Source of the DNA: Sporolactobacillus laevolacticus DSM 442
GTDB lineage: Bacteria > Bacillota > Bacilli > Bacillales > Sporolactobacillaceae
DNA: 64,000 bases
Direction: 5' to 3'
Assembly: GCF_000497245.1 (NCBI RefSeq)
Contig: NZ_AWTC01000001.1
Span: forward strand, 242,234 to 306,233
The notes under the pieces were generated by a model. That model had not been told where the DNA came from, did no database searches, and saw only the letters and a list, made by a program, of their open reading frames with translations. This document shows positions 40,495 through 42,945 of this stretch, in pieces; the stretch's first letter is position 1, and each line of letters starts with the position of its first letter. A program made the translations under genes and the position numbers.

Positions 40495-40533
40495 CAAAAA
40501 ATTGCCGCCCATCTGCATCAGGCAGTTGGGCGG
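40495..40533 (-). terminator. Terminator or attenuator between scfA and scfB
   Basis: Minus-strand stem CCGCCCAACTGC / GCAGATGGGCGG followed by CAATTTTTT, sixteen bases before the scfB start codon. Partial read-through would give more precursor than maturase. Confidence 0.75.
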
Positions 40534-40635
40534 TACAGTCCTGTTTCTTACACGACAAGGTACATTTCAGCACGTTTTAGTATAAGGACAGTTTAAAGGG
40601 AACTAACCAAAGACTTACCAGTCGGCAAGTTTACT

Positions 40636-40785
40636 TTAGCGGTTCGTTGGATCGGCACACTTCTGATTAGCAACACCGCAAGATGTTTTGCAGGCTGACT
40701 GGCAGGAAGTCTGACATTCACCGTGTCCGCCATGATTTGCGGATTCTCTCAGGTTCATTGTGTTCAGCGTTACGATTCTTTTCAT
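40636..40785 (-). CDS. scfA: SCIFF-type ranthipeptide precursor with five cysteines
   Basis: The peptide has 49 residues (start ATG 40785; an adjacent ATG at 40788 is equally near AAGGGG). The leader MKRIVTLNTMNLRES and the core ECQTSCQSACKTSC, then VANQKC, match the SCIFF family. Typical SCIFF has GCGECQTSC; here the first cysteine is replaced (GGHGECQ), leaving Cys 24, 28, 32, 36 and 43. The residue after Cys36 is Gly37, where I recall Thr as thioether acceptor in the characterised CteA. The C-terminal tail is ADPTNR. It lies directly before its maturase. Confidence 0.92.
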   Translation of the reverse strand: MKRIVTLNTMNLRESANHGGHGECQTSCQSACKTSCGVANQKCADPTNR

Positions 40786-40788
40786 CAT

Positions 40789-42438: not shown

Positions 42439-42945
42439 TTACTTAAATGATTTATTGTATAATACGGTTACTTTTTTCTGAGAAGTTCTTCCCGCTTTTT
42501 TAGTGTATGCTACAAGTCGAATGATATCCTGACAACATTGTTTTGCTCCAAACACTAGCAGCGGTACGCCGATAAAATCTATTTTTAGCCATCTGGAAAG
42601 TAACCCACCCATTGTCATCGCAAATGGAACAGTTGGTGATGTGTTAGAGAAAATAATTTTTTCACTGCCATCATATTTCTCTTGTAACAGTAAACTTAAA
42701 TTATTTAGAGCCGGGAGCAAGTGTTTTGAAGCACCACGTCCAACTGTATAAACTGAATTCCCATCATCATCGATGCCATGAAAAACAATTTTACCCATAT
42801 CTGAAGAGTTTAATTTATTGAAATAAGGCGTAGCTAAAATTTCTTCTTTGGTTAATTTATGGTCTGTAGATAATTTTTTAAGATGATAAGCCGCAGCTAA
42901 TGCAGTAGTATGTGTCCCACCAAAATCATTATATATGTAAATCAC
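42439..42945 (-). CDS. DUF3189 family protein
   Basis: The protein has 168 residues from a GTG at 42945 with AAAGGATG upstream. The N-terminus MIYIYNDFGGTHTTALAAAYHL and the central GRGASKHLLPAL are what I associate with DUF3189, a family of uncharacterised Firmicutes proteins. No catalytic motif can be named. It converges on yjcZ copy 2. Confidence 0.75.
   Translation of the reverse strand: MIYIYNDFGGTHTTALAAAYHLKKLSTDHKLTKEEILATPYFNKLNSSDMGKIVFHGIDDDGNSVYTVGRGASKHLLPALNNLSLLLQEKYDGSEKIIFSNTSPTVPFAMTMGGLLSRWLKIDFIGVPLLVFGAKQCCQDIIRLVAYTKKAGRTSQKKVTVLYNKSFK

Follow-up and report, generated by a model that had tools for sequence, protein, structure and literature searches.

A precursor gene, scfA, and an adjacent maturase gene, scfB, form a SCIFF (ranthipeptide) locus in the stretch of 64,000 nucleotides from Sporolactobacillus laevolacticus DSM 442 analysed here (the window; Table 1). 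Taking the sequence and the comparative analyses together, we consider it rather probable that the two genes constitute a functional system whose product would carry a Cys32–Thr34 thioether, that its clade, with Gly in place of Thr at precursor position 37 (Gly37), was moved laterally, and that the cysteine at precursor position 21 (Cys21) is dispensable. The initial annotation had regarded the thioether acceptor as lost, a claim that is not supported, as Thr34, the acceptor in co-expression work according to the available parts of two reviews (PMC8326336, PMC8172795), is present.

Table 1. Features of the scf locus, in window coordinates.
Feature	Position	Strand	Evidence or occurrence
scfB, radical SAM/SPASM SCIFF maturase, 471 aa	39064..40479	-	TIGR03974, 757 bits
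Terminator-like hairpin and T-run, between scfA and scfB	40505..40533	-	21/21 Bacilli Gly37 loci
Extra stretch of 88 bases, between scfA stop and hairpin	40548..40635	-	without counterpart in the other 14 genus loci
scfA, SCIFF precursor, 49 aa and stop	40636..40785	-	TIGR03973 and Pfam SCIFF profiles, translation

Translation of the minus strand of the scfA interval gave MKRIVTLNTMNLRESANHGGHGECQTSCQSACKTSCGVANQKCADPTNR, while the plus strand of the same interval encodes no SCIFF peptide; the coordinates proposed for the precursor in the initial annotation stand, with the addition of the strand that it lacked. The start codon is the ATG at 40785, with additional in-frame ATGs at 40788 and 40833. 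In profile searches the peptide scored 74.8 bits on TIGR03973 (cut-off 50) and 76.9 bits on Pfam SCIFF (PF13165; cut-off 27), and a TIGR03973 search returned it as the single SCIFF peptide of its own genome and had no match in 14 control genomes. A search of the PDB with the peptide gave no match. ScfA contains five cysteines (24, 28, 32, 36 and 43), with His at position 21, the place of the family's first cysteine, so that the proposed loss of one of six cysteines is upheld, at position 21 of ScfA numbering rather than 20. It retains the donor Cys32 and, of the two candidate acceptors, Thr34 without Thr37. Five cysteines, in the window as in all 15 host-genus peptides, fall short of six in about 45 residues, but six is the family name and not a criterion of the TIGR03973 model, and four other five-cysteine peptides (L017, L018, L025 and L026) score over its cut-off.

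The gap between scfA and the downstream scfB is 156 bases, and scfB starts at a TTG codon with an AAGGAG site upstream. ScfB exceeds the TIGR03974 cut-off of 425 bits, aligns with CteB (PDB 5wgg/5why) over residues 3–456 (E 1.3e-160) and possesses all of the cysteines 105, 112, 116, 119, 344, 352, 370, 408, 411, 417, 421 and 440, positions with little or no variation across 199 aligned rows (including the window copy), in agreement with the earlier description of the maturase as intact. It is the one ScfB match in its genome, and its membership is sustained by a score of 541.9 bits on the exception model NF040492 (orphan), which is under that model's cut-off of 855. TIGR03974 matched in 14/14 control genomes, over cut-off in none. 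The reading frame is open in 15/15 host-genus genomes, with 431–471 aligned residues, some being clipped by the ends of the fetched stretches. Searching a plasmid collection yielded distant maturases only (31 records, all <60% identity). A ScfB-like frame with 51% identity was observed at NZ_CP154629.1:933151-934500; this Acetoanaerobium record of 2.6 Mb is listed as a plasmid but is probably a chromosome.

The G+C-rich hairpin with its T-run recurs between the genes of every Bacilli Gly37 locus, and 6 of 420 dinucleotide shuffles scored as high as the real sequences, each of the six belonging to one of the two weakest loci. Comparable hairpins were present in all five further loci that were tried, of which four are Thr37-type, and RNAalifold on 20 hairpins gave seven pairs with little covariation. 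The hairpin is likely a partial terminator, predicted to hold the precursor above the maturase; because it parts the genes, ScfA would be produced in excess of ScfB. It begins 102 bases after the scfA stop in the window, compared with 12–22 bases in the remaining 14 loci of the genus. The 88-base stretch found there was considered as a repeat element and rejected, as it is single copy in its own genome. No convincing sigma-70 promoter was found before scfA (one weak site against a shuffle mean of 3.0). Only scfA and scfB are common to all 20 loci compared; spread within a larger gene cluster was rejected, with no third gene in 20/20 loci and every other real gene confined to 7 of the 20 or fewer, some loci ending at contig ends. 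The window also encodes, at 42439-42945 (minus strand), a DUF3189 protein (131 bits) with no match listed among the 20 loci compared.

Gly37 had been taken as a peculiarity of the window peptide, a view that the sampled genomes contradict. In a class sample of 398 genomes, TIGR03973 matched in 19, over cut-off in 13 (two from the host genus), a patchy occurrence in Bacilli that bears out the earlier remark that SCIFF is notable in a Bacillales-type genome; 16 peptides from outside the genus were retained (L032, partial, and L033, containing a stop, were dropped), and Gly37 is present in 6 of them. In the phylum sample, with a match in 319/398 genomes, 4 of the 210 peptides read from 209 genomes have Gly37; these peptides comprise the 30 best, 40 listed below them and 140 from 160 low-scoring genomes that were re-searched, among which the unread include the partial matches G553, G647 and G763. 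A Bacilli family (f19) had a SCIFF match in 22/295 genomes, 21 over cut-off, and all 18 of its peptides not read before contain Cys21, Thr34, Cys36 and Gly37; one genome of this family carries a weak SCIFF match with two internal stops, perhaps a remnant (L402, G865:C4:194146-194241). The exact Gly37 pattern occurred in at least 119 stretches across 84,980 genomes, with Faecalibacterium, Gemmiger, Emergencia, Anaerococcus and many uncultured Clostridia among the matches listed. As this pattern demands Thr34 and leaves position 21 free, it is no evidence on Thr34; Cys21 was found in 122 of 123 aligned copies among the matches listed, the other (L152) having an unread base there. Gly37 is a minority state, and in that sense not common in the family alignment, yet it is widespread, occurring in Clostridia and several Bacilli genera. 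A private change is ruled out by the pattern scan, the phylum sample, family f19 and the ScfB tree below. In three uncultured Clostridia with Gly37-type ScfB, a single open frame encodes two complete SCIFF modules in tandem, each with leader and core (L117:1300-1475, minus strand; L129:1136-1311 and L134:2414-2589, plus strand).

In a FastTree phylogeny of 141 ScfB rows, a single branch (support 98) separated 59/59 Gly37 rows from all 82 Thr37 rows, corresponding to one change in all. The host genus contributes 15 of the 59 rows, other Bacilli 6 and the pattern scan 37 (of the roughly 100 ScfBs that it gave), the remaining row being L060; the clostridial Gly37 rows come from a scan that preselected Gly37, and of the four Gly37 peptides in the phylum sample, three have no ScfB in the tree. 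In a quick IQ-TREE analysis of 46 rows (24 Clostridia, 14 host genus, 4 of the 6 other Bacilli and 4 Thr37), the 18 Bacilli rows formed a clade (97) nested within clostridial Gly37 rows (supports 95–99), which indicates transfer from Clostridia to Bacilli. Anaerococcus rows took differing positions in the two trees, and both outputs carried long-branch warnings. The trees are consistent with the hypothesis that position 37 changed to Gly once, in one ScfB clade and most likely in Clostridia, and that the cassette would have entered the Bacilli by lateral transfer. ScfBs of the Gly37 clade have residues of their own, namely Tyr335 (mostly Phe elsewhere), Met336, Ser354, Thr356 and Gln123; position 354, two residues from Cys352, is Ala in 81/82 Thr37 rows. 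Since these residues trace to the same single event, they may reflect ancestry or adaptation.

In-vitro and co-expression work disagree on where the SCIFF cross-link lies, and the Gly37 clade, which lacks Thr37 yet is accompanied by a normal-looking ScfB and maintained by selection, lets natural sequences settle the dispute. In ranthipeptides the thioether of the product attaches to a beta or gamma carbon and in sactipeptides to C-alpha, and SCIFFs are placed outside the sactipeptides by the two reviews, according to whose available parts the Cys32–Thr37 bond was assigned in vitro, with Tte1186a and CteA, whereas co-expression of CteA with CteB gave a Cys32–Thr34 bond via the gamma carbon (PMC8326336, PMC8172795). 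The Cys32–Thr37 linkage that the initial annotation gave for CteA matches the older assignment and not the co-expression result. Gly37 is unable to carry a gamma bond because it has no side chain. Thr34 was found in 15/15 host-genus peptides, 15/16 of the class sample, 210/210 of the phylum sample and 18/18 of the f19 peptides; among these 259 peptides from model-based searches, 43 have Gly37, all with Thr34 and Cys36, and none lacks both Thr34 and Thr37. Conservation alone does not single out Thr34, since hardly any variation occurs anywhere in the SACKTS block, with Ser30, Ala31, Lys33 and Ser35 as invariant as Thr34 in the 210-peptide sample. The reverse of the Gly37 state is seen in L027 (match at 1501-1626; 46.5 bits, below the TIGR03973 cut-off), which has Ser34, no Cys36 and Thr37; no further Ser34 relatives were available, its family and order in the collection consisting of that genome alone.

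On the basis of the retained residues and the CteA/CteB co-expression result, as summarised in the reviews, the ScfA bond is best read as Cys32–Thr34, a reading that we hold to be somewhat better supported than not. ScfB would bind the leader and form a single thioether that joins Cys32 to Thr34 at its gamma carbon. For the clade as a whole, the chances appear about even that it represents a natural Thr37 knockout that has persisted in Clostridia and in several genera of Bacilli while its maturase changed alongside, and in which the native bond would not be Cys32–Thr37 C-gamma and would instead be Cys32–Thr34 or a bond to a new unactivated acceptor such as Val38. If Cys32–Thr34 is the native bond of the Gly37 clade, the in-vitro assignment would be overturned as the native bond of the family. 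Some observations count against Cys32–Thr34 as the ScfA bond: L027, with Ser34 and Thr37, could mean that Thr37 serves as acceptor elsewhere; the ScfB residues Ser354, Tyr335, Met336 and Thr356 could mean a changed reaction; and in-vitro work on two SCIFFs assigned Thr37, as reported in the parts of the reviews available (PMC8326336, PMC8172795).

That same assignment, made on two Thr37-type SCIFFs, is the starting point of the alternative that Thr37-type SCIFFs natively form Cys32–Thr37 and that the Gly37 clade shifted the bond to Thr34 with changes in the maturase. The clade-specific ScfB residues, of which 354 and 356 are near SPASM cysteine 352 in sequence, and the presence of at least one of the two threonines in every sampled peptide would fit such a switch. 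It is nonetheless unlikely, as a Thr37-type pair gave Thr34 on co-expression, again as far as the reviews report it (PMC8326336, PMC8172795), and the ScfB residues amount to one tree event and so may be mere ancestry. Less probable again is a different bond in the Gly37 clade, in which Cys32 or another cysteine would be joined to a C-alpha or to a residue without activation, for instance Val/Ile38, as could be prompted by the lack of a side chain at Gly37, by the clade-specific maturase residues and by Val or Ile at position 38 in all Gly37 peptides readable there. However, position 38 is Val in 198, Leu in 11 and Ile in 1 of the 210 phylum-sample peptides, family-wide and thus no special feature, and Thr34 is retained in all 43 model-sampled Gly37 peptides. 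The earlier suggestion of a different cross-link in the product is therefore possible, but with Thr34 kept there is no need for one, and Cys32–Thr34 is preferred.

Cys21 loss, and not Gly37, is the trait peculiar to the host genus. A SCIFF peptide is present in 15/15 host-genus genomes (including its own, and counting the near-identical loci L004 and L005), with His at residue 21 in 14 and Arg in one (L009), and with Gly37 in all 15, so that the Gly directly after Cys36 noted at first is real. Outside the genus, Cys21 occurs in 243 of the 244 peptides read, and the sole exception (L315) has a Cys one position earlier; no SCIFF was found in the same family outside the genus (11 genomes, nine other genera). 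Since the host genus as one clade was not rejected against the other Bacilli rows on the ScfB tree (p-AU 0.399), a single loss is likely, and the Arg21 codon of L009, CGC, is one base change away from Cys TGC and one from His CAC. Within residues 19–44, positions 21, 25 and 42 are the only ones at which the protein differs between genomes, while all 26 codons are written in at least two ways; this constancy of the protein alongside variation in each codon argues that selection maintains ScfA. It is consistent with a history in which Cys21 would have been replaced by His (Arg in one species) in the host genus after the transfer, with function retained. With Cys21 replaced and then conserved, and Gly37 fixed in the clade, both Cys21 and Thr37 would thus be dispensable for maturation in this lineage.

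In the CteB crystal, Cys21 could interact with an auxiliary cluster though it is not cross-linked, according to the excerpts of the two reviews (PMC8326336, PMC8172795), and a genus without Cys21 suggests that this cysteine is not needed in nature. His21 may instead have taken over a role of Cys21, for example by coordinating the open iron in the auxiliary cluster, an idea compatible with the other readings; it would suit the His found in 14/15 genomes, but is improbable given Arg21 in one species and given that Cys21 is reported in review, in the part available, as a proposed mimic of donor Cys32. A decaying or non-functional precursor, or the sequencing error that the initial annotation had allowed for, would account for the absence of a family cysteine but is rejected as most improbable, because 15/15 genus copies share the change with synonymous drift and a constant protein, the ScfB frame is open in all 15, and the genus contains no six-cysteine Thr37 homologues, every copy having His/Arg21 and Gly37. 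No paper linking Sporolactobacillus with ranthipeptides or radical SAM enzymes was found, and no discussion of Gly37 or Cys21-less SCIFFs was found in the literature consulted; Haft and Basu 2011, Grove 2017 and Hudson 2019, known to us via reviews, may well show such members.

Among known systems, the locus is closest to the SCIFF family TIGR03973/PF13165 (CteA, Tte1186a), with which it shares the leader, the ECQTSC-SACKTSC-VANQ.C core, Cys32, Thr34 and an adjacent ScfB, and from which it differs in having five cysteines, with Cys21 lost, and Gly37 for Thr37. Its maturase resembles CteB of the TIGR03974 family in its full-length match and its radical SAM and SPASM cysteines, while possessing Gly37-clade residues such as Ser354, Tyr335 and Met336. 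Five cysteines are also found in the Cys36-less SCIFFs (L017, L018, L025–L031 and 15 of the 210 phylum-sample peptides), but these show the opposite combination to the window, keeping Cys21 and Thr37 and losing Cys36; of the 241 model-sampled peptides, 24 have Ile, Leu, Ala, Met or Val in place of Cys36, all 24 with Thr37, and 14 of the 24 have a ScfB in the tree. Freyrasin (PapA/PapB), as described in the available parts of the reviews (PMC8326336, PMC8172795), is likewise of the ranthipeptide class with a QhpD-like maturase, but has six Cys-X3-Asp beta bonds, and the window maturase scored 273 bits on the PapB model NF047865, under its cut-off of 340.
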